DNA of 64,000 bases from Tetrahymena thermophila SB210 (Eukaryota > Ciliophora > Oligohymenophorea > Hymenostomatida > Tetrahymenidae), in NCBI RefSeq assembly GCF_000189635.1, contig NW_002476484.1, positions 744,001 through 808,000 of the forward strand. Direction: 5' to 3'. Below the pieces are notes generated by a model. It worked only from the letters and a program-made list of their open reading frames with translations, was not told the DNA's origin and made no database searches. Positions 41,453 to 63,419 of this stretch are shown here, piece after piece (the stretch's first letter is position 1; each line of letters begins with the position of its first letter). The position numbers and the translations under genes were made by a program.

Positions 41453-43444
41453 ATGAGTAATAATTTCATCTAAAAAATAACAGAAGAAGAAGAAGAATAT
41501 CTTGAAAATTTAGGAATATATAAAAAATTTCCATATTTAAAAGAAGAAAACTAAAAATTTAACTAGTTTGCTGAGTCTTTTATCAAAGATTATAATACTG
41601 ATAGTAGATCTGGGGATAATTAAATTGAATATTCAAGTTAAAATCTGAAAAATGATTTAGATTTACAAAATAATTAATCTAATAGTTCGAATGAAATTGA
41701 ATAAACTAAAAGCCCTAAATCTAACACATAATCCAAAATGTTGAATTCTTCACATAAAAATTTTGATAGTAGATTAGAAAATGTTATTTATCAAAGTCCA
41801 TAACAATTTTAAGATTCAACAAATGATAATAAAAATGAAAGTGATCATCTTAAAATTAGAAGTAGTCATAAATTAGAAACCTTTTAAGATTCACCATATA
41901 ATGAAGAAGTAATTTTTTATGTTATATACTTTAATTCATTCTTTATCATTTCTTTTATTCCTCAAAAAGCTAGAAAAATATTTTTTATTGAATTATTTTT
42001 TCAGGAAACTAAAAAGTTTTATTTTCATATGCCAATATATATCGAAATTATAGTATAATCCTAAGTAATTTTATTTTATATTTAAAAATGTTTTATGATA
42101 AGTTAGAACATAAAAAATAAATGAAGTATTTTGAAAATTGTTGCTTTCATTTATTTGAAATTTTTTTATTTTAAATTTAAATACTTTTATTGTTATTATT
42201 TTAAAATTATATCATCAATTCTCTAATTAACTCTGTTAATAAATTAATTATTTTTTAAGATTAAAAAGACATCAAAAATGAGTACAGATTCATAAACCTC
42301 TGAAGAAAAAATAAAAAAAAACTTTTTTATTAAATTAGTAGATAATATCTTAACTAGAATCAAAAATTTAGTCTTCCAAGATTATGATTCTCAGTTTTAT
42401 GGATTGGATAATTAAAAAATAAATTTAGATGAGATAAAAAAATAAAGTGATGGTAGAATTACTTACAAAAATAAATAGGATTTGAAAACAATTACTTTTT
42501 TAACATCTGGATATTTAACTTAGGACATCAAAGTCTCAATTAATTTTTTAAGTTTAGCAAATACTAATAAAATAGATTGTTAAGACAATTTGTTTATTTT
42601 TTTCAGATGGTCTGATAGCTCATTATTAGATATTGCTAAACTTTTTGATAAATGCTAAAAAAAACCTTCAATTTATAAATATTATTTTTACAGTTTGATA
42701 AATAATTTTTTAATGAAACATTTTAGCGATATTACAATAACAGCAATTTATTGGTTGGCAATAGCATTTGAAAAATATTTGGAGTTATATCCTCCCTTAC
42801 TTAACGGTTTTATTAAAGGAATTAAATGTAAACTTGATAAAATGATTTAAAACTTTAAACAGGCTTACTAAGAGGCTAAAAATAGTGGTGCGGTTTTAGC
42901 TAAATGTATAAACAAACTAAATTTAATGGGAAATTTAAATATAGATTTTATAGGTCACAGTTTAGGAACTGTAGTAATTGCCTATGCTTTGAGGGATTTA
43001 TCTATTCCTGCTAGATATTTAATGCTTTTTGGAGGAGCTGCAACAACACAAGAAATTGAAGTTTATTAGCACAATTTTTAAAAGTGTTATAATTTCTATT
43101 CTGATCATGACAAAGTGATTTAAGCATTTCTAAAATATGCAAAGCTGATTGATGATTAAGATTTTATAGGAGTAAAATCATTTGGCTAAATAAAAGATAA
43201 ATTTTTCAATTTAAATACAAAAATTGATCACATGGTTTATATATTAGAATTTGATAAATATTATAATACTGCAATGGCAGAATTTAATAAGTCTTCTAAT
43301 AGTATAGATCTTATTGAGAAACCAAATATAATGAAAATAGGATTTGGAGGATTATTACTTTATTTATTAAAAAACAATTCTTAAAGTAATTAAGTATCTG
43401 TAATTTATATGTTTATTCTCTACATATACTATTTGTTTAAATGA
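41453..43444 (+). CDS. Hydrolase B: DUF726-like alpha/beta hydrolase
   Basis: Two exons, 41453-41908 and 42260-43444; 546 codons plus TGA. It has the same plan as A but belongs to a second subfamily shared with E and H: exon 1 is shorter (152 residues), starts with an acidic EEEEEYLE run before IYKKFPYLKEE, and has no internal repeats. Exon 2 has TITFLTSGYLTQ, AKNSGAVLAKCI, the intact nucleophile elbow IDFIGHSLGTV, RYLMLFGGAAT, NFYSDHDKV and FNLNTKIDHM. A Ser-Asp-His triad is therefore plausible. The C-terminus is hydrophobic. The 351-bp intron is longer than in subfamily A/D/G. Substrate is unknown; members of this fold are lipases, esterases or acyl hydrolases. Confidence 0.8.
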
Positions 43445-43599
43445 TAATTTAGAATCAAATAGTTAGTGTATTCTAAATAAATGAATTGAAATCTTAAGCA
43501 ACATTTCATAAAATCTTTATTAATTTATCAAAATTTCTAAATTAATTTAATGTCATTCCAAGTTTAAAAAAAATTTTTTAGGTTTTATATTTATTTTTT

Positions 43600-44455
43600 T
43601 TTAACAAAATTTTAAAAATATTTTTAAATAACATTATGAATAATTATGAACCTTAAATTTATCAACACTATTTAAAAGAATTGTTATATAGTTGATTATA
43701 GGCACGTTTTAGCTATATTGTAATAAAAGGTATTTATTGGTTGTTAGAGTTACTCAATATGTGCATCAAATAAGTTGGATCTTCTTTTTTTTAAAATAAA
43801 TTAGAGCATTTAAAACAGTACTGGATTCAACAAATAAAGATTTTTAAGTTGCTTATGAATAGGCTAAAAATTATGGCGCAATTTTAGCTGAAATTATAAA
43901 AAATCAATGATTAATGAGAAGATTAAATATTTATTTTATGGGTCACAGCTTAAGAGCAGTAGTCACTGCTTATGCGATCAGAAATTTATAGATGTCTGCT
44001 AGATATTTAATGCTTTTTAGAGTTACAACAATTACAGAAATTCAAGACTATTCCCAAAAGTTTTAAATGGGGTTTTACTTCTATTTTGAAAACGACACAG
44101 TGGTTAAAACATATCTAATAAAAGCAAAGGTTGTTGGCAATTAAGAATTTGGAGGAACAATACCATTTTAGTTTAAATAATAATATTTTCAATTTAAATA
44201 CAAATATTCATCATCTTGATTAAATGAATGAATAAATATTAAGAGTATTATAATCTGACTATGGTATAATTTAAATCACCTTCTAATAAAATAGAATTAC
44301 TTGAGAAATTAAATTTTATTAAATCAGGATAAAGACGATTATTACTTTATTTACTAGAAGATAATTCTAAAAATAATTAATTATCTGTATTTTATTTGCT
44401 TATTCTCTACATTTATTAACTATCTTAATGATAGTTTAGAATTGAGTATATTCAT
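43600..44455 (+). pseudogene. Hydrolase C: decayed exon-2 fragment
   Basis: A fragment of a subfamily A/D/G exon 2, starting inside the domain and running to the usual hydrophobic end. It has an in-frame TGA where D encodes Cys (D phrase LLDSCL; near 43693), another TGA just before the elbow (CAATGATTAATGAG near 43907), GHSLR instead of GHSLG, a short deletion in the strand after it, and a frameshift near the end. No exon 1 or promoter-like flank precedes it. The same lesions occur in F. Confidence 0.8.
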
Positions 44456-46477
44456 AATTAAATTAATATCTTATCTTAAATTAAATCTTTTAAATCTTTA
44501 TTAATTTTTTACATATTCTTTCTTCATAAAAATTAAGTTCAGTTTTTAAAATATATTTTTTAAATTCATTTTATTTGAAAAAATATTAAACTAAAAAATT
44601 GTAAATATTGAGTTGGAATTTTATATTATAATTTTTTAAGAAAATGTAATAAAATTTAATTTTTATAAATATCATACAGATGTTTCACCCCTAGTATCTC
44701 GCGGTTTTTATTTATATTTTGATTTGTATAAAACAAATCAAAATATAAAGAAAATAAATACAAAGGATACTCGTGGTGAAATATCTGTATTTGCTTATTA
44801 ATTTTAAATTATTTAAGAGTTAACTCTTAAGCATTAATTAAAAAGCTATTTTTTAAAAATCTTTGATTTTTTTAATTAAAAATTAATTATTAATAAAAAC
44901 TCAATTCACTAGTTTTTGAGTCTTAAATTAAAATATTCAAATGATTAATTAACATTTCGTATTTTATTTGATGACTCAACATTAATGATACGTTTTTATG
45001 ACATCAATAACTCGATTTTGAATTTAAGAATGATTATCGTAGTATTTATAATATTTAATATGTGATGTAATATAAAATAGCTTAATAGTTAAGCTGTATA
45101 TTCGACTAATGACAAAATAATCGTTTTTGAAATATTTATCAATTTTCTAAAAATTTTATTTTTAGTTTTTCCTTGAAGTAAGATCTCGACATTTTCTAAA
45201 TTTATACTTACAATTAACTTATTTGAATGATAAATATTAGCTATTATTTTTAAAAATGTATATGGTGAATACTTTTCTTATTAGATTTATGATTAAAATA
45301 AAATGATAAAAATAATATCGGATAATCTAAAGACACGTTCTAGCTAAATCATTTAGAATAATCAATAATTTAATTAAAATGAAAGCTCATTTAATAAAAT
45401 TTTTTCCTTAAAATTGTTTTATATTCTTCGATATTTATCTCTAAAAAATGAAAAAAGAGATATTTGATGCTGAAAATCTTAAAAATTAAAAGGTAAATAT
45501 ATATAGCGTTTTAGTAAATAACCTATTTTATATTTGTTAATTTAGCTTTAAAAGATAGGATTTATTTTGCTTTATTTTTCTAGATTATTATCAACGCACT
45601 TAAGTTTGATTATTAGATTAAATTATGCAGTTCATATAAACTTAAAAGAATAAACAGCTCTTACCAACTTCATTATTCAAAAATATTAAAATAAAATCAA
45701 AATGGATTTGCTTAAATATTGAAATCCTCAAAATTAAGAGCTAATTGTCCATATGGATTGAGTAAAATGAGTTATTTTATATTTATTTATTTAGCTTTCC
45801 AATTTAATACTATTTTTTTAAATTACCAACACATTAAAATTTGAATATTAGACTAAAATAAATAAGTAGCTCATTTAGATTAAAAAAAAAACAGATATTA
45901 CCAAATTTATTTTAAAAAAAAACCAAAGTAAAATAGAAAAGGAATAGTTTATTTATTGAAATGCTGTAAAATATTCATTAGTAATCCAAATTTTAGTGGG
46001 CAATATAATAAATAACCAAAATAGAAATCTATTATAAAAATTGCATTTAATACAGACTAATACAAATTTTAATGTCAAAATTTATTATCCAGGTATGATA
46101 TAATAACAAAATTTAATGATCTGGGCAAAATTAATCATAAGATGACATAGTGAAGTCATTAGAAACACAACGTCAGAGTCTTAATTAAATTTAACGTACT
46201 CATATACTACTAGACGTATATCAATTAATGATTGATTATCATACAGTAACGAAGCAATTATTTCTTTTAATGCTAAATATCTTATTTACTGATCTCTCTT
46301 TAGGATTTTAGTATTCAGAGGTCTGATATTTATCTACATTTCTGTTTGGTTAAAATAATAATGTCCAATATATTAAAATAACCAACAATAAATAGTACCA
46401 TCTAAAACAACCAAAAAAGTATAATATAATAATAAAAAACTAAAATTTAAAACTAAAAAAAAAAAAGAAAAAAAAAA
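44456..46477. promoter_or_regulatory. 5' flank of hydrolase D
   Basis: About 2 kb duplicated as the flank of G (57236-59438) and, from about 44800, of A. It contains an inverted-repeat element (listed separately) and otherwise only AT-rich DNA without open frames. The last 80 bp before the ATG are the conserved purine-rich leader. Confidence 0.5.
44674..44790. mobile_element. MITE-like inverted repeat, copy 1
   Basis: Two arms of about 55 bp face each other across a spacer of about seven bases. The outer ends are ATACAGATGTTTCACC and its near-complement GGTGAAATATCTGTAT; the inner ends are TATTTTGATTTGT and ACAAATCAAAATA. No coding capacity. Such short non-coding palindromes look like non-autonomous DNA transposons, although target-site duplications are not obvious. 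Confidence 0.5.
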
Positions 46478-48525
46478 ATGATAAGTTTACTTCTCTCAAC
46501 ATTAACAGAAGACTAAAATTATTTTTCAGATTTGAAAATCTATGAAAAATTCCCTTATTTAAAAGAAGAAAAATCAATATTTAATGAATAAGTTTAACAG
46601 CTTTGCTATTAATATTCTGATAAAATATGTGAAGAGGAGTAAGTTTAACTTTAGACTGGTAATTTTAACTTAGACTGCCTAGGAAGTCATTTAACTTAAT
46701 CAATTAATTCAACTGATTAAACTAGATTGTAAAAATAATATCTTGGATTTCCTAGATTTAAGCAAATAGAATAAAAAACTGACTCTACGAATGAGGATAA
46801 TACATTTGAAAACTAATAAGACAAAAGCCTTAATCTTAACTCATAAGAGCTGATTGATTCACCAGGTAGATATAATGGCAGAATATATGAAGGTGAAGAT
46901 GCTTAACATTCTTTAAATAATTCTTAAGAGTAAATCTACTTAGATTCACTAAATGATAGAGTAATGCTCAATTTTATATACCTTAAATCATTCCTTATTT
47001 TTTCTTTTATTCCTTTAAAATTGATTTAGAAAAATTTTAAAAAACTTGATTTTTGCATTTAAAAATTTATTGAGATTATAATGAAATATTTTGATAATAA
47101 TTGGTATATCTTTTAATTTATTTAAAGAATAATCATATAAAATATTATCTTACAAGTTATTTCTTAAAATATCTATTAATTCTGTTAATAAATTTATCAT
47201 TTTTTAAGTGTAAAAGATCAAAGAGAACACAAATTAATCCTGAATAAATGGAACAAGTAATAAAACATAGATTTTTAAATTCTCTATATTTAACTATATT
47301 AATAAATTAATCGTTTTTTAAGATTAAAAGGTCACAGATAAGTGGAAATGAGCAAGAATTAACTGAAGAAACTAAAGGCGTAATAAAACAAGGATTTCTA
47401 AGTTCACTATAATAAATTATATCATCTAAATTGTAAAGTTTTTTAGTATCAAATAAAAATCCTATGTTTTATGGTTTGGATGATTGTTTAATAGATCTAA
47501 ACTAGATATAATAAGGATATGATGGTAGAATTACTTACAAAAATAAACAACAATTGTAAACAGTTACCTTTTTAATATCTGGCTATTTAACTTAGGATCT
47601 TAAAGCCTCAGAAAACTTTTAAATATTAACTAATACTAAGAATAAAGAATCTTAAGAAAATTTGTTTATTTTCTACAAATGGTCAGACAGTAGACTTTTC
47701 AAAATTTTAGATAAATTTTTAAATAATATTATGCACAATTATGAACCTGAAATTTATCAAGACTATTTAAAAGAATTGTTAGATAGTTGTTTATAGGCTT
47801 GTTTTAACGATGTTATAATAAAAGGCATATATTGGCTGTTAGAGTTACTCAATATGTGCATCAAATAAGTTGGAACACCTTTCTTTTTAAATTAAGTTAG
47901 AATACTTAAAACCGCTCTTGATACAACAATTGAAGACTTTTAAGTTGCTTATGAATAGGCTAAAAATGGTGGCAAAATTTTAGCTGAAAATATAAACAAT
48001 CTAAAATTAATGAGAAAATTAAATATAGATTTTATGGGTCACAGCTTAGGAGCAGTAGTCACTGCTTATGCGGTGAAAAATTTATCAATGTCTGCTAGAT
48101 ATTTAATGCTTTTTGGAGGAGTTGCAACAGTCAAAGAAATTCAAGACTATTCCAAGAAGTTTTAAATGTGCTATAACTTCTATTCTGAAAACGACACTGT
48201 GGTTAAAACATGTCTAGTAAAAGCAAAAGTCGTTGGCGATCAAAAATTTGTAGGAACAATACCATTTAGTTTTAATAATCAAATTTTCAATTTAAATACA
48301 AAAATTGATCATCTTGATTATATGAATAAATATTAAGAGTATTATAATCTTGCAATGGAGTAATTTAAATCACCTTCTAATAGATTAGACTAAACTGAGA
48401 AAATAAATTTCATGAAATTTGGATTAGGAGAATTATTACTTTATTTATTACAAGATAAGCCTAAAGATAAATAAGTATCTATATTTTATCTGTTTGTTCT
48501 CTACATTTATTAATTATTTTTATGA
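46478..48525 (+). CDS. Hydrolase D: DUF726-like alpha/beta hydrolase
   Basis: Three exons, 46478-46960, 47209-47256 (only 48 bp) and 47323-48525; 577 codons plus TGA. The N-terminal part starts MISLLLSTLTEDQNYF, then KIYEKFPYLKEE, with one copy of the QIEQKtDst...ENQQDKSLNL motif that is triplicated in A. The hydrolase part has TVTFLISGYLTQ, AKNGGKILAENI, an intact elbow MGHSLGAV, RYLMLFGGVAT, NFYSENDTV and FNLNTKIDHLDYM. A Ser-Asp-His triad is likely. The C-terminal 20 residues are hydrophobic. Gene G has the same exon lengths and nearly the same sequence, so both copies seem under constraint or very recent. Confidence 0.82.
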
Positions 48526-49368
48526 TAGTTTAGTTTAGAATTGAGTATTCTAAATTAAATTAATCATATTTCTTAAATTAAATCTTTTAAATATTTATTA
48601 ATTTTTTACATACATAAATACATCTATTTTCATAAAAAGTTATTTCAATTTTAAAATAAATTTTTTGATTCTTTCTATTTAAATAATTAAATAAATTAAA
48701 AATATAAATTGTGTTAGAACTTTATTTATCTTATCATTTTTTAAAAAACATTATAAAATTTTAATTAATTATAAGCCATATATTTTTTATAAATACAGCA
48801 CCACCCTTAAAGCTTTAGGACAATATTATTTAATTATTTTATCGTTTATTGGAAACAGGAGGGTTTGTTTAAGAGGAATTAATTTATTTAAGTAAATTTA
48901 ATTTTATTTTTACAAATATTTATTTACTTACAAAAATATAAATGATATTAAAAATAAAAAAACAATAATAAAATCTAATATATTTTAGGTTAAAAAAAAC
49001 TTTTTCAAAATATTGAAAAATAAAAAAAACCTTTAATATTCAATATTTGCTCATCACTAGAAATATTTTTTAAAGACAACTAATCTTTTTGATTTAAGAC
49101 ACTTGCTTATTAATTTGAATTGTTATGATTAATTCATTGAGCTAAAATTTATAATAAATCTGTGTAAATTTTAAATAAATATCAAATATAATAAACTTTA
49201 AATTAAAAATTATTTCTTAAATAAATAAATAAAATAAAATTAGAGGAATAAAAAAGATAAAAAATTAATCAAATAATAGCTATCAAATAAATTCAATGAG
49301 CTTTATTGTTTTAAATTAGTTTTAATAATTAAAAATATCACAATCCAAAACAAATAAACTGTTTTTAC
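48526..49368. other. Junction between hydrolase D and the LRR array
   Basis: Similarity to the 3' flank of G continues to about 48833 (CTTTAGGACAATATTATTTA) and then stops sharply. Beyond this, AT-rich DNA without a clear open frame leads to the first LRR exon; one short repeat-unit piece (AAATATCACAATCCAAAACAA at 49335) belongs to the array. If the last LRR exon is not spliced out, its frame ends at a TGA near 49333. Confidence 0.5.
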
Positions 49369-52300
49369 CTAAGGTTAAGTATCAAATTTGAGAGATTAAT
49401 GCAATTTGTTAAACCTGAACATAAGCCTGATGCACCTTCTTCACCAATTTCATTCTCACTTTTAAAAAAAATATATCATTAAATAGTTAATTGGAAGGAA
49501 AAAATGAAGAAAGAATATGAAATAATAAGATAGATTAATTAATAATAAAAGTAAAAGTTGAAAATAAAATGATGAGTTAAATAAACAAAGAAAGAACAAA
49601 AAAAAAGCAAGCACAATATAAAGAAAAAGAAAAAAGTGCTTTATTGTTTTAAATTAGTTTTTATAATTAAAAATATCACAATCCAAAACAAATAAACTGT
49701 TTTTACCCAAGATCAAGCGTCAAATTTGAGAGATTAATGCAATTTGCTAAACCAGAACCTAAGCCTGAAGCACCTTCATCGCCAATTTAATTATACCTTT
49801 TTAAATATTGAAGAAAAAATATATCATTAAATAGTTAATTTGAAGGAAAAAATGAAGAAAGAATATGAAATAATAAGATAGATTAATTAATAATAAAAGC
49901 AAAAGTTGAAAATAAAATGATGAGTTAAATAAGCAAAGAAAGAACAAAAAAAAAAAGCAAGCACAATAAAAAGAAAAAGAAAAAAGAGCTTTATTGTTTT
50001 TAATTAGTTTTTATAATTTAAAATATCACAATCCAAAACAAATAAACTGTTTTTACCCAAGACAAAGTGAGAGATTAATGCAATTTGCTAAACCAGAACT
50101 TAAGCCTGATGCACCTTTATCACCAATTTTATTGTAACTTTTTAAATATCGAAGAAAAAATATATCATTAAATAGTTAATTAGAAGGAAAAAATGAAGAA
50201 AGAATATGAAATAATAAGATAGATTAATTAAAAATAAAAACAAAAGTTGAAAATAAAATGATGAGTTAAATAAGCAAAGAAAGAACAAAAAAAAAAAGCA
50301 AGCACAATAAAAGGAAAAAGAAAAAAGAGCTTTATTGTTTTAAATTAGTTTTTATCATTTAAAATATCAAAATCCAAAACAAATAAACTGTTTTTACTAA
50401 AGGTCAAGTGTCAAATTTGAGAGATTAATGCAATTTGCTATACCAGAACCTAAGCCTGATGCACCTTCATCACCAATTTAATTTCTTCTTTTTAAATATT
50501 GAAGAAAAAATATATAATTAAATAGTTAATTAGAAGGAAAAAATGAAGAAAGAATATGAAATAATATAAACACAAAAGTTGAAAATAAAATTATGAGTTA
50601 AATAAACAAAGAAAGAATAAAAAAAAAAGCAAGCACAATAAAAAGAAAAAGAAAAAAGAGCTTTATTGTTTTAAATTATTTTTAATAATTTAAAATATCA
50701 CAATCCAAAACAAATAAACTGTTTTTACCTAAGGTTAAGCATCAAATTTGAGAGATTAATGCAATTTGCTAAACCAGAACCTAAGCCTGATGCACCTTTA
50801 TCACCAATTTCATTCTCACTTTTTAAATATTGAAGAAAAAATATATCATTAAATAGTTAATTAGAAGGAAAAAATGAAGAAAAAATATGAAATAATAAGA
50901 TAGATTAATTAATAATAAAAGCAAAAGCTTAAAATAAAATGATGAGTTAAATAAACAAAGAAAGAATAAAAAAAAAGCAAGCACAATAAAAAGAAAAAGA
51001 AAAAAGAGCTTTATTGTTTTAAATTAGTTTTTATAATTTAAAATATCACAATCCAAAACAAATAAACTGTTTTTACCTAAGGTTAAGCATCAAATTTGAG
51101 AGATTAATGCAATTTGCTAAACCAGAACCTAAACCTGATGCACCTTCATCACCAATTTCATTCTCACTTTTTAAATATCGAAGAAAAAATATATCATTAA
51201 ATAGTTAATTGGAAGGAAAAAATGAAGAAAGAATAAGAAATAATAAGATAGATTAATTAATAATAAAAGCAAAAGTTGATAATAAAATGTTGAGTTAAAT
51301 AAGCAAAGAAAGAATAAATAAAAAAAGCAAGCACAATAAAAAGAAAAAGAAAAAAAAGCTTTATTGTTTTAAATTAGTTTTAATAATTTAAAATATCATA
51401 ATCCAAAACAAATAAACTGTTTTTACCGAAGTTCAAGTGTCAAATTTGAGAGATTAATGCAATTTACTAAACCAGAACCTAAGCCTGATGCACCCATTTC
51501 ACCAATTTTATTGTAACTTTTTAAATATTGAAGAAAAAATATATAATTTAATAGTTAATTAAAAGGAAAAAATGAATAAAGAATATGAAATAATAAGATA
51601 GATTAATTAATAATAAAAGCAAAAGTTGAAAATAAAATGATGAATTAAATAAACAAAGAAACAACAAAAAAAAAAGCAAGCACAATAAAAAGAAAAAGAA
51701 AAAAGAGCTTTATTGTTTTAAATTAGTTTTTATAATTCAAAATATCACAATCCAAAACAAATAAACTATTTTTACCCAAGATCAAGTGTCAAATTTGAGA
51801 GATTAATGCAATTTGCTAAACCAGAACATAAGCCTGATACACCTTCATCACCAATTTAATTTCTTCTTTTTAAATATCGAATAAAAAATATATAATTAAA
51901 TAGTTAATTAGAAGGAAAAATAGAAGAAAGAATATGAAATAATAAGATAGATTAATTAATAATAAAAGCAAAAGTTGAAAATAAATTATGAGTTAAATAA
52001 ATAAAGAAAGAACAAAAAAAAAAGCAAGCACAATAAAAAGAAAAGAAAAAAGAGCTTTATTGTTTTAAATTAGTTTTTATAATTAAAAATATCATAATCT
52101 AAAACAAATAAACTGCTTTTACCGAAGTTCAAGTGTCAAATTTGAGAGATTAATGCAATTTACTAAACCAGAACCTAAGCCTGATGCACCTACATCACCA
52201 ATTTAATTCTTACTAATTAAATATTGAAGAAAAAATATATAATTAAATAGTTAATTAGAAGGAAAAATGAAGAAAGAATATGAAATAATAAGATAGATTA

Positions 52301-54116
52301 ATTAATAATAAAAGCAAAAGTTGAAAATAAAATGATGAGTTAAATAAACAAAGAAAGAACAAAAAAAAAAACAAGCACAATAAAAAGAAAAAGAAAAAAA
52401 AGCTTTATTGTTTTAAATTAGTTTTTATAATTTAAAATATCACAAATAAACTGTTTTTACCTAAGGTTAAGTGTCAAATTTGAGAGATTAAAGCAATTTG
52501 CTATACCAGAACCTAAGCCTGATGCACCCTTTGCAACAATTTAATTCTCACTTTTTAAATATTGAAGAAATAATATATAATTAAATAGTTAATAAGAAGG
52601 AAAAAATGAAGAAAGAATATGAAATAATAAGATAGATTAATTAATAATAAAAGCAAAAGTTGAAAATAAAATGATGAGTTAAATAAACAAAGATAGAACA
52701 AAAAAAAAAAGCAAACACAATAAAAAGAAAAAGAAAAAAGAGTTTTATTGTTTTAAATTAGTTTTTATAATTAAAAATATCACAATCCAAAACAAATAAA
52801 CTGTTTTACTAAATGTTAAGTGTTAAATTTGAGAGATTAATGCAATTTGCTAAACCAGAACCTAAGCCTGATGCACCTTCATCACCAATTTAATTTCTTC
52901 TTTTTAAATATTGAAGAAAAAATATATCATTAAATAGTTAATTAGAAGGAAAAAATGAATAAAGAATATGAAATAATATAAACACAAAAGTTGAAAATAA
53001 AATTATGAGTTAAATAAACAAAGAAAGAATAAAAAAAAAAGCAAGCACAATAAAAAGAAAAAGAAAAAAGAGCTTTATTGTTTTAAATTAGTTTTAATAA
53101 TTTAAAATATCACAATCCAAAACAAATAAACTGTTTTTACCTAAGGTTAAGCATCAAATTAGAGAGATTAATGCAATTTGCTAAACCAGAACCTAAGCCT
53201 GATGCACCTTTATCACCAATTTCATTCTCACTTTTTAATTATTGAAGAAAAAATATATCATTAAATAGTTAATTAGAAGGAAAAAATGAAGAAAAAATAT
53301 GAAATAATATATTAGATTAATTAATAATAAAAGCAAAAGTTGAAAATAAAATGATGAGTTAAATAAACAAAGAAAGAATAAAAAAAAAGCAAGCACAATA
53401 AAAAGAAAAAGAAAAAAGAGCTTTATTGTTTTAAATTAGTTTTTATAATTTAAAATATCACAATCCAAAACAAATAAACTGTTATTACCCAAGATCAAGA
53501 TTCAAATTTGAGAGATTAATGCAATTTGCTATACCAGAACCTAAGCCTGATGCACCCTTTGCACCAATTTCATTCTCACTTTTTAAATATTGAAGAAAAA
53601 ATATATCATTAAATAGTTAATTAGAAGGAAAAAATAAAGAAAGAATATGAAATAATATGATAGATTAATTCATAATAAAAGCAAAAGTTGAAAATAAAAT
53701 GATGAGTTAAATAAACAAAGAAAGAACAAAAAAAAAAGCAAGCGCAATAAAAAGAAAAAGAAAAAAGAACTTTATTGTTTTAAATTAGTTTTTATCATTT
53801 AAAATATCAAAATCCAAAACAAATAAACTGTTTTTACTAAAGTTCAAGTGTCAAATTTGAGAGATTAATGCAATTTGTTAAACCAGAACCTAAGCCTGAT
53901 GCACCTTTATCACTAATTTAATTGTTACTTTTTAAATATTGAAGAAAAAATATATCATTAAATAGTTAATTAGAAGGAAATAATGAAGAAAGAATATGAA
54001 ATAATAAGATAGATTAATTAATAATAAAAGTAAAAGTTGAAAATAAAATGATGAGTTAAATAAACAAAGAAAGAACAAAAAAAAAAGCAAGCGCAATAAA
54101 AAGAAAAAGAAAAAGC
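49290..54116. repeat. Tandem array, 14 units of about 345 bp
   Basis: Each unit holds, on the plus strand, AGCTTTATTGTTTTAAATTAG, CAATCCAAAACAAATAAACTG, the reverse-complemented LRR exon, GAAGAAAAAATATAT, AATAGTTAATTAGAAGG and a purine-rich end with GCAAGCACAATAAAAAG. The first unit on the left is incomplete. Units 11 and 4 from the left (52980, 50570) share a deletion of the AAGATAGATTAATT block, and pairs of units share exon variants, the mark of unequal crossing-over or copying of multi-unit blocks. Introns are nearly as conserved as exons. Confidence 0.9.
49369..53927 (-). CDS. Leucine-rich-repeat gene built of 14 cassette exons (5' end not found)
   Basis: Read on the minus strand there are 14 exons: 53927-53838, 53578-53489, 53230-53141, 52899-52810, 52550-52461, 52212-52123, 51865-51776, 51516-51427, 51166-51077, 50818-50729, 50487-50398, 50137-50057, 49796-49707 and 49458-49369. 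Thirteen are 90 bp and one 81 bp. Each follows an AG acceptor (usually AAAAAG), ends before GTAAAAAC or a one-base variant, and is in the same phase, so each adds one 30-residue repeat such as ENEIGDEGASGLGSGLANC followed by INLSNLTLNL. This is the RNI-like LRR pattern of ribonuclease inhibitor and NLR proteins, with Asn, Gly-Ala and the LANC-INLSNL-L-L backbone. All 14 are free of TGA; the 81-bp exon lost three codons in frame. No start exon in matching phase was found at 53928-54260 and no other domain is attached, so it may be a gene fragment. Confidence 0.72.
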
Positions 54117-54528
54117 GAGTTTTTTAACAGGTTTTTACATTTTATAAAACTAAAATTTTAAATATTTTTTCCGAATTTTTTTTCATCCTTGGAATTCACT
54201 GTAACTCATCTTTTTTTAAATCGCCCATTTTTTTTAGGCGTGGTTAGAATAAATCTTTAAATTATTTTTTCAGGAAACTAAAAAGCTTTATTTTCAAATA
54301 CCAATATTTATTGAAATTATAGTATAATCCTAAGTAATTTTATTTTTTATTTAAAAATGTTTTATGATAAGTTAGAACATAAAAGATAAATGAAATATTT
54401 TGAAAATTGTTGCTGTCATTTATTTGAAATTTTTTTATTTTAAATTTAAATACTTTTATTGATATTATTTTAAAATTATATCTTAAATTCTCTAATTAAC
54501 TTTGTTAATAAATTAATTATTTTTTAAG
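53928..54528. other. Junction between the LRR array and hydrolase E
   Basis: Array sequence ends near 54116 with AAAAGCGAG. A 140-bp unique stretch follows, which is GC-richer in places (GGCGTGGTTAG at 54237). At about 54262 similarity to the intron of gene B begins (ATTATTTTTTCAGGAAACTAAAAAG, at 41992 in B) and continues to the exon 2 acceptor at 54528. Thus exon 1 of E and its promoter are missing and replaced by array-linked DNA. Confidence 0.65.
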
Positions 54529-55716
54529 ATTAAAAAGTCATAAAGAACGAGAACAGATTCATAAACCTCTGAAGATAAAATAGAAAAAAATTTTTTTATT
54601 AAATTAGTAGATAATATCTTAACTAGAATCAAAGATTTAGTCTTCCAAAATTATGATTCTCAGTTTTATGGATTGGATAATTAAAAAATTAATTTAGATG
54701 AGATAAAAAAATAAGGTGATCGTAGAATTATTTACAAAAATAAATAGGATTTGAAAACAGTTACTTTTTTAATATCTGGATATTTAACTTAGGACATCAA
54801 AGTCTCAATTATTTTTTTAAGTTTAGCAAATACTTAGAAAAAAGATTGTTAAGACAATTTGTTTATTTTTTTCAGATGGTCTGATAGCTCATTATTAGAT
54901 ATTGCAAATAAACTTTTTGATGAATGCTAAAAAGAACCTTCAATTTATAAATATTATTTTTTTAATTTGATAAATAATTATTTAAATGAAAATTTTAGCT
55001 AAATTGCAATAATAACTATTTATTGGTTCACAATATTACTTGAAAAATATTTGGAGTTATATCCTCTTTTATTTAACGATTTTATTAAAGAAATTAAATG
55101 TAAACTTGATATAATGATTTAAAAATTTTAAGAGGTTTACGAACAGGCTAAAAATAGTGGTGCGGTTTTAGCTAAATGTATAAACAAACTAGATTTAATG
55201 GGAAGTTTAAATATAGATTTTATGGGTCACAGTTTAGGAACTGTAGTAGTTGCCTATGCTTTGAAGAAAATATCTATTTCTGCTAGATATTTAATGCTTT
55301 TTGGAGGAGCTGCAACAACACAAGAAATTGAAGACTATTAGCACACGTTTTAAAAGTGTTATAATTTCTATTCTGATCATGACAAGGTGATTTAAATATT
55401 TCTAGAATATGCAAAGCTTATTGGTGATTAAGATTTTATAGGAGTAAAATCATTTGGCTAAATAAAAGATAAATTTTTTAATTTTAATACAAAAATTGAT
55501 CACATTAATTATTTGATGAAATTTGAAGAATATTATAATACTGCAATGGCATAATTTAATAAGTCTTCTAATAGTATAGATCTTATTGAGAAACCAAATA
55601 TAATGAAAATAGGATTTGGAGGATTATTACTTTATTTATTATAAAAAAATTCTTAAAGTAATTAAGTATCTGTAATTTATCTGTTTATTCTCTACATATA
55701 CTATTTGTTTTAATGA
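54529..55716 (+). pseudogene. Hydrolase E: exon 2 only, 5'-truncated but open
   Basis: The exon is open from its acceptor to TGA at 55714 and aligns end to end with exon 2 of B (TVTFLISGYLTQ, AKNSGAVLAKCI, MGHSLGTV, RYLMLFGGAAT, NFYSDHDKV, FNFNTKIDH). The catalytic Ser is intact. The Met codon B has early in this exon is ACG here, so there is no good start, and exon 1 is gone. It could only be made if a new upstream exon or start is used. The open frame suggests the truncation is recent or that a fusion transcript exists. Confidence 0.75.
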
Positions 55717-56282
55717 TAATTTAGAATCGAGTGTATTCTAAATAAATAAATAAATGAATTGAAATCTTAAGCAACATTTTATATAATCTTTATTAATTTA
55801 TCAAAATTTCTAAATTAATTTAATGAATGTTTATTTCAAGTTTAAAAAAAATTTTTTAGATTTTATATTTATTTTTTTTTAATCTTTAAAATTACATTTA
55901 ATAAAATATAAAGATGTTTATTTAAAAATATAAAATATAGTATAGATTTAATGTTTTTGAATTAAATTAGCATAATTATAATATGTCAATCATAACACAT
56001 TTTATTATCATTTAATTTTTTTAATGATATTTATTATCTTTCACTTTATAGATTAGTTTAATTCTTTCCTCTAGTGATTAATAAAGGCTTTGTATTAAGT
56101 TTGCATAATCGCTACTAAAAATTATTTCTTCTGCTGATTTAAACATATCTTCTTCGTCATAATCTTCATTCCTTTTATTTGTATAATTCATTTTTAATCT
56201 ATACCCTGACATTATCAATTATATTTATATCTAGGCTTTGGGCATGCCATTAATTTTTCTATTTTAATTTCCTCTACCTTTT
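55717..56282. other. Spacer E-F with an unrelated minus-strand ORF remnant
   Basis: After the E gene the flank matches that of B for about 140 bp. Then 55880-56270 has no counterpart between B and C. It includes a coding-looking minus-strand stretch (next entry) and breaks into hydrolase F sequence at about 56283. Confidence 0.5.
56020..56212 (-). pseudogene. Short coding-like remnant of an unknown gene
   Basis: From the ATG at 56212 the minus strand encodes MSGYRLKMNYTNKRNEDYDE and continues with a charged, normal-looking composition (SAEEIIFSSDYANLIQSLYQ, SLEERIKL) before drifting into low-complexity AT-rich translation after about 56030. No domain was recognised. It is an insertion relative to the B-C interval, so it probably came with a rearrangement. 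Confidence 0.3.
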
Positions 56283-57240: not shown

Positions 57241-59438
57241 TAGAATTGAAGGATCGATAGTGAGTTTTTTAGATAGTTAGTTTAGGTATATTTTTCTTGT
57301 TAACCTTCTTTATTTAATATAGTCTAAATATAGAGTTTGTTGGGTGAGTTTTTTACTATTTATAATGAGAAGAAAGATATATAGAGGTAGAAAAGAAGTT
57401 TTAAATTGTTAATTTAAGCTTTAAATTAATCTAATATCTTAAATTAAATCTTTTAAATCTTTATTAATTTTTTACATATTCTTTCTTCATAAAAAGTCAG
57501 TTCAATTTTTAAAATATATTTTTTAAATTCATTTTATTTGAAAAAAATATTAAACTAAAAAATTGAAAATATTGAGTTGGAATTTTATTTTATAATTTTT
57601 TAAGAAAATGTAATAAAATTTAATTTTTATAAATATCATACAGATGTTTCACCCCGAGTATCTCGCAGTTTTTATTAATATTTTGATTTATTTTATTAAA
57701 ACAAATCAAAATATAAAGAAAATAAATACAAAGGATACTCCTAAAAAATATCTGTATTTGTTTATTAATTTTAAATTATTTAAGAGTTAATTAACTCTTA
57801 AACACTAATTTATAAGCTATTTTTTAATTGAAAATTAATTATTAATAAAAACTCAACGTCACAACTTTTTGAGTCTTAAATTAAAATATTCAAATGATTA
57901 ATTAACATTTCATATTTTATTTGATGACTCAACATTAATGATACGTTTTTATGACATCAATAACTCGATTTCGAATTTAAGAAATTAAATCGTAGTATTT
58001 ATAATATTTAATATGTGATGTAATATAAAATAGCTTAATAGTTAAGCTGTATATTCGACTAATGACAAAATAATAGTTTTTAAAATATTTATCTATTTTC
58101 TAAAAATTTTATTTTTAGTTTATCCTTGAAGTAAGATCTCGACATTTTCTAAATTTATACTTACACTTATTTGAATGGTAAAAATTAGTTATTATTTTTT
58201 AAAATGTATATGGTGAATACTTTTCTTGTTAGATTTATGATTAAAGTAAAATGATAAAAATAATATCTGATAATCTAAAGACATGTTATAGCAAAATTAT
58301 TTAGAATAATCAATAAATTTAATTAAAATGAAAGCTCATTTAATAAAATTTTTTCCTTAAAATTACTTTATATTCTTCGATATTTATCTCTAAAAAATGA
58401 AAAATCAGATATTTGAAGCTGAAAATCTTAAAAATTAAAAGGCAAATATATATAGTGTTTTAGTAAATATCCTTTTTCATATTTGTTAATTTTGCTTTAA
58501 AAGATAGGATTTATTTTGCTTTATTTTTCTAGATTATCAAGGTACTTAAGTTTGATTATTAGATTAAGTTATGTAGTTCATATAGACTTTAAAGAATAAA
58601 CAGCTCTTACCAACTTCGTTATTAAAAAATACTAAAATAAAATCAAAATGGATTTGCTTAAATATTGAAATCCTAAAAATTAAGAGCTAATTGTCCTTAT
58701 GGATTGAGTAAAATGAGTTATGTTATATTTATTTATTTAGCTTTCCAATTTAATACTATTTTATAAATTACCAACACATTAAAATTTGAATATTAGATTA
58801 AAATAAATAAGTAGCTCATTTAGATTTAAAAAAAAACAGATATTACCAATTTCACTTTAAAAAAAACCAAAGTAAAATAGAAAAGGAATAGTTTATTTAT
58901 TGAGATGGTATAAAATATTCCTTAGTAATCCAAATTTTAGTGGGCAATATAATAAATAACCAAAATAGAAATCTATTATTATAAGTTAAAAATTGTATTT
59001 AATACAGACTAATACAAATTTTAATGTCAAAATTTATTATTCATGTATGATATAATAACAAAATTTAAAAATCTGGGCAAAATTAATCAGAAGATGACAT
59101 AGTGAAATCATAAGAAACACAACGTCAGCATCTTAATTCAATTTAAAGTACTCATATACTAGATAGTATATCAATTAATGATTCATTATCATACACTAAC
59201 GAAGCAATCAATTATTACTTTTAATGTTAAATATCTTATTTACTGATCTCTCCTTAGGATTTTAGTATTCAAAGGTCTGGTATTTATCTACATTTTTGTT
59301 TGGTTAAAATAATAATGTCCAATATATTAAAATAACCAACAATAAATAGTACCATCTAAAACAACCAAAAAAGTATAATATAATAATAAAAAACTAAAAT
59401 TTAAAACTACAAAAAAAAAAAGAAAAAAAGAAAAAAAA
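57241..59438. promoter_or_regulatory. 5' flank of hydrolase G
   Basis: Duplicate of the flank of D. A ~175-bp segment at about 57249-57425 (GGATCGATAGTGAG to AATTTAAGC) has no counterpart after C and looks like an insertion. The rest follows D, including the inverted repeat at 57638 and the conserved purine-rich leader. Confidence 0.5.
57638..57757. mobile_element. MITE-like inverted repeat, copy 2
   Basis: Same element as 44674-44790, with the outer end ATACAGATGTTTCACC on the left arm and a damaged right arm (GGATACTCCTAAAAAATATC). It sits at the homologous place of the duplicated block, so it was copied with the block rather than inserted anew. Confidence 0.5.
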
Positions 59439-61482
59439 ATGATAAGTTTTCTTCTCTCAACATTAACAGAAGACTAAAATTATTTTTCAGATTTGAAAAT
59501 TTATGAAAAATTCCCTTATTTAAAAGAAGAAAAATCAATATTTAATGAATAAGTTTAACAGCTTTGCCATTAATATTCTGATAAAATATATGAAGAGGAG
59601 TAAGTTTAACTTTAGACTGGTAATTTTAACTTAGACTGCCTAGGAAGCCATTTAACTTAATCAATTAATTCAACTGATTAAACTAGATTGTAATAATAAT
59701 ATCTTGGATTTCCTAGATTTAAGCAAATAGAATAAAAAACTGACTCTACGAATGCGGATAATACATTTGAAAACTAATAAGACAAAAGCCTTAATCTTAA
59801 CTCATAAGAGCTGATTGATTCACCAGATAGATATAATGGCAGAGTGTATGAAGGTGAAGATGCTTAACATTCTTTAAATAATTCTTAAGAGTAAAACTAA
59901 TTAGATTATCTAAATGAAAGAGTAACGCTCAATTTTATATACCTTAAATCATTCCTTATTTTTTCTTTTATTCCTTTAAAATTGATTTAGAAAAATTTTA
60001 AACTTGATTTTTGCATTTAAAAATTTATTGAGATTAAAATGAAATATTTTGATAATAATTGGTATATCTTTTAATTTATTTAAAGATAGTCATATAAAAT
60101 ATTATCTTACAAGTTATTTCTTAAAATATCTATTAATTCTGTTAATAAATTTATCATTTTTTAAGTGTAAAAGATCAAAGAGAACACAAATTAATCCTGA
60201 ATAAATGGAACAAGTAATAAAACATAGATTTTTAAATTCTCTATATTTAACTATATTAATAAATTAATCGTTTTTTAAGATTAAAAGGTCACAGATAAGT
60301 GGAAATGAGCAAGAATTAACTGAAGAAACTAAAGGCATAATAAAAGAAGGAATTCTAAGTTCACTATAATAAATTGTGTCAACTAAATTGTAAGGTTTTT
60401 TAATATCAAATAAAAATCCTATGTTTTATGGTTTAGATGATTGTTTAATTGATCTAAACTAGATAAAATAAGGATACGATGGTAGAATTACTTACAAAAA
60501 TAAACAACAATTGTAAACAGTTACCTTTTTAATATCTGGCTATTTAACTTAGGATCTTAAAGCCTCAGAAAACTTTTAAATATTAACTAATACTAAGAAT
60601 AAAGAATCTTAAGAAAATTTGTTTATTTTCTACAAATGGTCAGACAGTAGACTTTTCAAAATTTTAGATAAATTTTTAAATAATATTATGCACAATTATG
60701 AACCTGAAATTTATCAAGACTATTTAAAAGAATTGTTAGATAGTTGTTTATAGGCTTGTTTTAACGATGTTATAATAAAAGGCATTTATTGGCTGTTAGA
60801 GTTACTCAATATGTGCATCAAATAAGTCGGACCATCTTTCTTTTTAAATTAAGTTAGAGTACTTAAAACATTTCTTGATACAACAATTGAAGACTTTTAA
60901 GTTGCTTATGAATAGGCTAAAAATGGTGGCACAATTTTAGCTGAAAATATAAACAATCTAAAATTAATGAGAAAATTAAATATAGATTTTATGGGTCACA
61001 GCTTAGGAGCAGTAGTCACTGCTTATGCGGTGAAAAATTTATCAATGTCTGCTAGATATTTAATGCTTTTTGGAGGAGTTGCAACAGTCAAAGAAATTCA
61101 AGACTATTCCAAAAAGTTTTAAATGTGCTATAACTTCTATTCTGAAAACGACACTGTGGTTAAAACAGGTCTAGTAAAAGCAAAGGTCGTTGGCGATCAA
61201 AAATTTGTAGGAACAATACCATTTAGTTTTAATAATCAAATTTTCAATTTAAATACAAAAATTGATCATCTTGATTATATGAATAAATATTAAGAGTATT
61301 ATAATCTTGCAATGGAGTAATTTAAATCACCTTCTAATAGATTAGACTAACCTGAGAAAATAAATTTCATGAAATTTGGATTAGGAGAATTATTACTTTA
61401 TTTATTACAAGATAAACCTAAAGATAAATAAGTATCTATATTTTATCTGTTTGTTCTCTACATTTATTAATTATTTTTATGA
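59439..61482 (+). CDS. Hydrolase G: near-identical twin of D
   Basis: Three exons, 59439-59921, 60166-60213 and 60280-61482, with exactly the exon lengths of D; 577 codons plus TGA. The sequence differs from D at only scattered positions. All motifs are intact: KIYEKFPYLKEE, TVTFLISGYLTQ, MGHSLGAV with the Ser nucleophile, NFYSENDTV, FNLNTKIDHLDYM and the hydrophobic C-terminus. Together with the duplicated flanks this shows a recent copy of a multi-kilobase block. Confidence 0.82.
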
Positions 61483-63419
61483 TAGTTTAGTTTAGAATTG
61501 AGTATTCTAAATTAAATTAATCTTATTTCTTAAATTAAATCTTTTAAATCTTTATTAATTTTTTACATACATACATCTATTTTCATAAAAAGTTATTTCA
61601 ATTTTAAAACAAATTTTTTGATTCTTTCTATTTAAAATATTAAATAATTTAAAAATATAAATTGTGTTAGAACTTTACCTTATCATTTTTTAAAAAAAAT
61701 TATTAAATTTTAATTAATTATAAGCCATATATTTTTTATAAATACAACACCACCCTATAAGCTTTAGGACAATATTATTTATCCAGCAGTTTTTCAACTG
61801 CCTTTTGGGTGGGGAGATTTTTCCAATTTACTTTTTGGAAAAAATTTAGAATTAAATTCTTTTTAATAAATTAATTTAATATAATTAATACAAGTTAAAT
61901 CTTAAATTTCCTTTTTATAATTTTGCTATATTTGAGAGAATAATGAAATTTTAAAAAATAAATACCTATGTTTCTTTAATTTGAATTTATTAATTATAAG
62001 AGTTGTAAGATACACAATTTATAAAAAAATGATTTGACTGGTAGTTTAGTTATCTTTAATTTAAATCTGTTTGTATCATTTTTGCTTTCTTATCCATATT
62101 AAAAAGAAAAATTAGCTAATTGCCTTAAATATTTTAAGACATCCTAGCTAAATATTCATTCAAGCTAAATATAATATATTTGTAATATATATTTCTTTTA
62201 CAAGATTAATTTGCTTTACTTTTATATATTACGGATGAGCGTTACCGTGGCAATTGCGTTTAGGTATAAAAGTTTTATTCATACAAAAAACTAAACAACT
62301 TGTAATAACTTTAGTTTTTAAAAATTCCTTAGTAAAATAGAATAATATAAATATAAAAATAATGAAAAATAGACTATTATAATCCAAATTATTATGGGTA
62401 ATAAAACAATTTATAGAAAATTTAATCTAGAGATAAAGTAAAAATAGGTTAAAGGTACATACATAAATATTGACTAATCACAATTCAAAATTGAAATAAA
62501 ATTTATTGTTGTTAATTTATTTTCAAAATAAAAAAGATAATCATCCTAATAAATGTAATCAAAATTTAAAAATTTCAAATAGAAAGAAACGCAAATTAAG
62601 AATCTGACTAAAACAAAGTTTTTATTTTTTCTATATTTTCACAATCAATCAATCATTATTAAAATACTAACTAAGCTAATATTTGTATTATAACTGAACA
62701 ACTCATATCTTAGTAAGTAATTCTTATTAAGTTTTGAATATTAAAAAAGAGGTTCTCCATTATTCTAGATAAATTTAATTCTAAATATAGAAAACCTAGC
62801 ATTAAATACTTCTTTCAAATACAGTTATTAGTTAATAACAATAAAATTAAAGTAAAAATAATTCAAAAAAATAAAATGGTAGATTATCTAATAAAGTTAA
62901 TAGAAGAAGAAGAATTTTAAAATTAAGACATTTACAAATGATTTCATTTTTTAAAAGAGGAATAAAAAACATTTATTTCATAGGTAAAATCATTTTGCTT
63001 AAAGTAAATTGAAAATAAATTAGAAAATCGGTTAAGTTATTTATTTTCTATCAAAATAAAATAGAAAAAAGATTATGTTTAGAATAAAACTCCTTTATTA
63101 TGAAAAAAGTTAATAAGCTTTTTATTTAAAATTGTTTGGCATACGTTATTATAATCAATTAATGATTGATTATTAAGACACTTACCAAACAAAAAATTAT
63201 TTAAAATTGAATAAATAAACACCTTATCTGGTAATATCTCTATTTATGATTTGAGAATTCAAAATAAGATGAATATCTATCTTAATTTCAGTATAGAAGA
63301 ACTTTCTACAATCAATCATAATTCAAAAATCAATTATTAATAACTCTATCAATATCATTAAAATAAATATAATTTAATAAATAGTTAAATAAGAATAATT
63401 ACAAATAAAAAAAAAGAAA
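61483..63419. other. Spacer between hydrolases G and H
   Basis: Counterpart of the A-B spacer. It has a GC-richer patch at 62230-62260 (ACGGATGAGCGTTACCGTGG), a palindromic AATCAATTAATGATTGATT at about 63151, and an exon 1 relic at 62877-63010. No intact gene. Confidence 0.5.
62877..63010 (+). pseudogene. Relic of hydrolase exon 1 upstream of H
   Basis: Begins with an ATG and MVDYLIKLIEEEEF, like the acidic start of subfamily B/H exon 1, then DIYK and a TGA where the family has IYEKFP. After the stop, FHFLKEE-like sequence is still recognisable in another frame. It is clearly a broken exon 1 with no exon 2 behind it. Confidence 0.55.

Follow-up and report, generated by a model that had tools for sequence, protein, structure and literature searches.

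We examined if a tandem array on the minus strand of Tetrahymena thermophila contig NW_002476484.1 is a gene for a leucine-rich repeat (LRR) protein, and where its near-identical units differ from one another. The array lies in a stretch of 64,000 nt (contig positions 744001–808000), which was analysed as a whole and is called the window; positions below are counted within it. An initial annotation of the window had proposed an array of phase-matched LRR exons serving a recognition-type protein, and this interpretation, taken as a whole, was partly supported. We consider it probable that the locus encodes an LRR solenoid whose units spread by germline exchange and whose predicted concave residues are under diversifying selection.

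Array anatomy and gene ends

The array consists of 14 tandem units read from the minus strand, with the first exon base at 53927 and the last at 49369, in agreement with the initial annotation; the unit length of ~345 bp given there was corrected to a spacing of 331–350 bp, for which TRF returned a period of 348, 14.0 copies, 90% matches and a score of 7758. The tandem array as a whole, with its 13 phase-2 introns, covers 49298–54114. LRR exons 1 to 11 lie at 53838–53927, 53489–53578, 53141–53230, 52810–52899, 52461–52550, 52123–52212, 51776–51865, 51427–51516, 51077–51166, 50729–50818 and 50398–50487, exon 12 at 50057–50137, exon 13 at 49707–49796 and exon 14 at 49369–49458 (all minus strand). 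The proposal of one 90-bp exon per repeat held for 13 of the 14 exons; exon 12, read to the usual donor, is 81 bp, a multiple of 3 that keeps the frame. Its shortfall of 9 bp sits near its 3' end, and its true donor is uncertain because a GT 9 bp downstream of the usual donor would restore a 90-bp reading.

Each exon has its own splice sites, as had been claimed, with AG before and GT after every one of the 14. The 13 introns between LRR exons (241–260 bp) all cut a codon after its second base, as read from the open joined frame. The joined exons give 416 residues, with repeats such as ENEIGDKGASGLGSGLANCINLSNLMLNLR. Read in the ciliate code (TAA/TAG = Q), this frame is free of stops, and the other two frames have 34 and 12; the window as a whole holds 0 ORFs of 200 aa under table 11 and many under table 6. 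Units 3 and 10 (exon plus following intron) were 98.8% identical, each with an intron of 241 bp. A block duplication of seven units was considered and rejected, the lag-7 signal over the array being weak and reached by 512 of 10000 permutations. Scans of the window for tRNA genes and for Rfam families (gathering threshold) gave no matches.

The annotation had taken the array as coding and not as a non-coding satellite, and we agree. That the units are satellite DNA, or the remains of a decayed gene, might be argued from how often the ends of other contigs fall within such arrays or next to them; it is scarcely credible given that 0 of 288 exon-like matches in this and related arrays, made with stops allowed, had an in-frame TGA, that the splice sites are conserved, and that a terminal exon was kept in 9/9 other arrays examined.

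In the window this terminal exon is very probably 49054–49141 (minus strand), joined in phase 2 via a 227-bp intron and coding for 28 residues after the split codon, followed by TGA. In each of the nine other arrays aligned at this place there was an acceptor 205–231 nt past the last donor, in the same frame, and a conserved opening of the exon, CLKSK(R/K)LVV or a close variant of it; one of the arrays (L016) is on a contig that runs out before the stop codon. The annotated extent, 49369–53927, was therefore right for the LRR exon bounds and very probably too short for the gene, which by comparison of these sequences would run on to 49141–49054; other acceptors are possible. At the opposite end a block at 54110–54198 (minus strand), found by sequence comparison between arrays, is common to other arrays, and the gene start is expected within it or nearby. 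An ATG-led block shared upstream is a doubtful start exon, since the likely donors from that ATG appear to miss the phase 2 of exon 1.

The array sits between copies of esterase-like segmental duplications that flank it: 44458–48832 is 94.7% identical to 57421–61781, and 41988–43604 is 92.0% identical to 54257–55882. Esterase-like frames at 47101–48525, 54502–55716 and 60049–61482 gave marginal matches to Pfam DUF676 (E 1.6e-4 to 5.2e-4), one of the three just under the cut-off, and further related copies are present in the window.

Repeat register and membership in a known family

The array protein matched Pfam LRR_6 (E 2.4e-37) and nine PDB sequences, all of LRR proteins and several of the RNase-inhibitor (RI) type, including DRC5 and NLRP2. 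The alignments to RI-type proteins were in the register LxLxxNxIG, so that the protein shows both marks of RI-type repeats, this register and LRR_6. Positions x3, x5, x7, x8 and x10 of the motif fall on codons 25, 27, the codon split at the exon junction, 0 and 2. In LRR proteins the residues at x3, x5, x7 and x8 point towards the concave side, and the strand positions found below to be variable are thus predicted, from the motif register, to line the concave face.

Thousands of Tetrahymena LRR genes with exons of exactly 90 bp were described by Xiong et al. (2019; PMC6564038), who noted an extreme bias to phase-2 introns, placed the centres of six leucine codons at exon nt 36, 48, 66, 75, 81 and 87, and found the genes associated with the REP retrotransposon; unit exchange or ectopic recombination was proposed for the family, bacterial recognition was suggested as its role, and Ka/Ks of whole genes between species was below 1. 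Their T. thermophila group III comprises 934 genes with ~257-bp introns, 347-bp units and 1 to 51 exons of 90 bp per gene. Long stretches of a telomerase reading frame from the assembly are identical to PDB 6d6v_A, a T. thermophila sequence, which places the genome in this species or very near it. The present array agrees with group III at each feature compared: exons 1–11 are all 90 bp, where at least three consecutive such exons define the group; all its introns are phase 2; intron lengths fall about the published peak of ~257 bp, which is also the genome median (257; 202 introns, 26 arrays); and codons 11, 15, 21, 24, 26 and 28 are leucine in 13, 10, 13, 13, 13 and 12 of the 13 full-length exons, the remainder being isoleucine. 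DNA similarity was present both within the array and between arrays. The 81-bp exon 12 departs from the published description. The array therefore belongs to a known Tetrahymena family of 90-bp-exon LRR genes that is very large, and the main idea of the initial annotation, phase-matched cassettes copied by recombination, fits our data and had already been published for this family (PMC6564038).

What appears to be unreported is that codons of the predicted binding face are highly variable amid nearly constant surroundings, introns included. The amino-acid logos of PMC6564038 omit each exon's first base and final two bases, and with them the junction codon, which is among the two most variable codons found here. 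The terms "positive selection", "hypervariable", "concave" and "diversifying" are absent from its main text, as is "alternative splicing"; the logos in its figures may display variable positions. A search of the open-access literature showed, among the matches listed, no report of selection at these codons.

Divergence of the predicted concave codons

The annotation held that introns were homogenised nearly as strongly as exons; the order proved to be the reverse, mean pairwise identity within the array being 95.0% for introns versus 87.3% for exons. The excess exon variation was concentrated mainly in the predicted concave-strand codons, one of which is split by the intron. Codons with pN above 0.24 in the window were 0, 2, 5, 6, 16, 25, 27 and the junction codon, and the Leu and Asn codons between variable ones changed hardly at all.

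Other cassettes, for which the annotation had suggested a search, occur across the genome. The assembly (101.0 Mb, 445 contigs) was searched with two repeats; of 6854 first-look candidates, 150 were scored, and 149 of these, spread over many contigs, were matches. Twenty stretches were fetched for a first array set, and exons were called as 90-bp AG..GT segments without TGA and with at least 8 of 11 scaffold residues; scaffold pN is depressed by this last demand, and the core codons were unfiltered. Twenty-six arrays had at least 4 exons (228 exons), of which 25, namely the window and 24 others, had at least 3 introns of 220–300 nt and were used; window exon 12 was dropped from the pN/pS comparison. 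The concave class (codons 25, 27, junction and 0) was set from the motif register after the window array had been seen and before the other arrays were. In stretches L010, L018, L023 and L027 a contig end that lacks telomere repeats falls within an LRR array or next to it, so that such arrays probably break the assembly, and those elsewhere may be longer than they appear.

In 25/25 arrays exon divergence exceeded intron divergence, and concave pN was higher than each of intron divergence, core pN, core pS and scaffold pS (medians: concave pN 0.410, intron 0.044, core pN 0.052, core pS 0.055, scaffold pS 0.049). Four stretches fetched later gave the same order against introns, core pN and core pS in 4/4 arrays. 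Pooled, concave pN stood above introns and synonymous sites in all 29 arrays (medians 0.41, 0.05 and 0.06), which are not 29 independent trials because the arrays exchange units. Concave pN was 8.2 times the intron value (bootstrap 7.4–10.1; 11.4 corrected for multiple hits) and 7.0 times the value at synonymous sites (bootstrap 5.5–10.1; 9.7 corrected). A control, one duplicated esterase pair in the window, gave pN 0.025 below pS 0.044 on few differences.

The class is not uniform, and variability is not confined to it. Over the whole set of arrays codon 25 (x3) varied only mildly (mean pN 0.119), and codons 6, 2 and 5, outside the class, stood above it (0.337, 0.262 and 0.246). Concave pS was also raised (median 0.218), and in 2 of 25 arrays, one of them the window array, it was higher than concave pN. 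In 11 of the 25 arrays core pN was greater than the divergence of introns, and in no more than 13 was it less than core pS, so that clear purifying selection on the core within arrays is absent.

Exposed positions vary in LRR proteins generally, and the pattern might then reflect relaxed constraint, exposed residues varying for lack of anything that holds them while the scaffold residues are conserved. We disfavour this account as highly improbable: codons free of constraint should stay at or below the neutral rate, and the variable codons exceed introns and synonymous sites 7–8 fold. The excess (10–11 fold when corrected) suggests that a predicted recognition surface is under strong diversifying selection, which would account for it; the published whole-gene Ka/Ks below 1 between species counts against this. 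The recognition-type protein that the annotation had suggested gains support from these hypervariable codons, which it had missed; a recognition function is probable on this evidence.

Origin of the variable codons and comparison with known systems

At base-level resolution the boundaries of the variable codons were sharp. Differences within arrays were 0.64, 0.59 and 0.63 for the three bases of codon 0, and 0.62 and 0.49 for the last two exon bases; the adjoining first six intron bases differed at 0.00–0.02, codon 1 at 0.01–0.06 per base, and codon 28 at 0.07, 0.01 and 0.04. The 191 junctions scored carried 167 distinct x5-x7-x8-x10 strings. At the variable codons TGA was found 0 times against 15.1 expected from base composition (288 exon-like matches, 229 junctions). 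Codon 0 was enriched over expectation in Trp, Arg and Glu and depleted in Ala, Thr, Val and Cys. Mutual information between half-strands was slightly greater than in shuffles, with z of 6.3 for halves within exons and 4.8 for halves across introns, and six pairs of variable blocks gave z of 2.7–8.5; linkage of half-strands was on these values set aside as a map of exchange points. At codons 5–6 of the fetched arrays certain blocks recurred (GATGAA 115, GACGAA 22, GATAAA 22, GCAATG 24 and others), and these types are several bases apart at once in surroundings that are otherwise alike.

We asked if homogenisation could give this pattern with no positive selection, old alleles of the end codons being kept while conversion evens the introns and cores and end mismatches stop the conversion tracts. 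The nine within-array pairs whose introns are less than 1% apart, which come from few arrays, differed at 0.32 of variable bases, and 8 of the 9 had residue differences, as retention of old alleles would allow. Likewise, where two repeats share a residue at codon 27, the junction or codon 0, the codon itself differed in 0.31–0.48 of all pairs versus 0.09–0.15 of pairs within arrays, which suggests many alleles of different origin between arrays. We nonetheless judge this explanation unlikely, for codons 28 and 1, each flanked by hypervariable codons, are nearly invariant even at their third positions, so that conversion would have to respect islands of 3 nt; the absence of TGA also speaks against it.

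A directed process, in which templated short patches or targeted mutation replace these codons and selection removes the stops, would explain why, among 30 within-array pairs identical over 110 nt (core plus intron edge), 18 differed at codon 0, 12 of these by 2–3 nt. Pairs with zero flank difference were found between arrays as well (138/34175, against 31/1336 within arrays; 30 arrays), and these 138 differed at 2–13 of 17 variable bases. An old star-like expansion would have a tail of about this size, so that flank-identical pairs need not be recent, and identical flanks were dropped as a proof of recency. Moreover, 6 of the 31 flank-identical pairs within arrays were identical at the variable codons too, and residues shared within arrays mostly use the same codons. 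We give a directed process a slim chance.

Diversifying selection on units spread by exchange, the reading we prefer, would work as follows. The gene would encode a solenoid of 14 near-identical RI-like LRRs, and its units would multiply and move through unequal exchange in the germline nucleus, which we infer partly from the published family. Each repeat would present a nearly frozen scaffold carrying a few hypervariable residues at x5, x7 and x8 of LxLxxNxIG, with weaker variability at x10 and the two residues directly after it, and x3 only mildly variable. Since the x7 codon is interrupted by the phase-2 intron, exchange within an intron would join two half-strands and could thereby make a new surface patch.

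A bolder proposal, which we regard as rather doubtful, is that the ~1000 young LRR genes (group III has 934) together make up a recognition repertoire encoded in the germline, with a layout resembling that of TAL effectors or variable lymphocyte receptors. In it a master cassette with a near-frozen scaffold and intron would continually acquire new residue sets at x5, x7, x8 and x10, either because diversifying selection is extreme or through a directed process acting on short patches, and with the intron inside the hypervariable strand, exchange would reshuffle half-strands.

With hypervariability resolved to single codons of a predicted binding face, the suggestion that these proteins could act in bacterial recognition becomes a specific, testable claim; the pattern names the residues to be tested and offers a reason for the odd position of the phase-2 intron. 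The locus would be a clean natural case of introns that vary less than the exons they separate, and it bears on the role of a very large, fast-evolving Tetrahymena gene family.

Three known systems invite comparison. TAL effector repeats are near-identical and carry a hypervariable residue pair; they are bacterial and without introns, their fold differs from that of LRRs, and the likeness is one of pattern only. Plant resistance LRR proteins show variation and positive selection at the solvent-exposed positions of the xxLxLxx strand, as the array does at its predicted equivalents; their repeats are irregular and old, whereas the array is built of near-identical cassettes whose introns are less variable than the exons. 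The variable lymphocyte receptors of jawless vertebrates share with the array tandem LRR modules and a variable concave surface, here a predicted one; they are assembled somatically by a conversion-like process, whereas the diversity of the array sits in the genome, with one exon per repeat.
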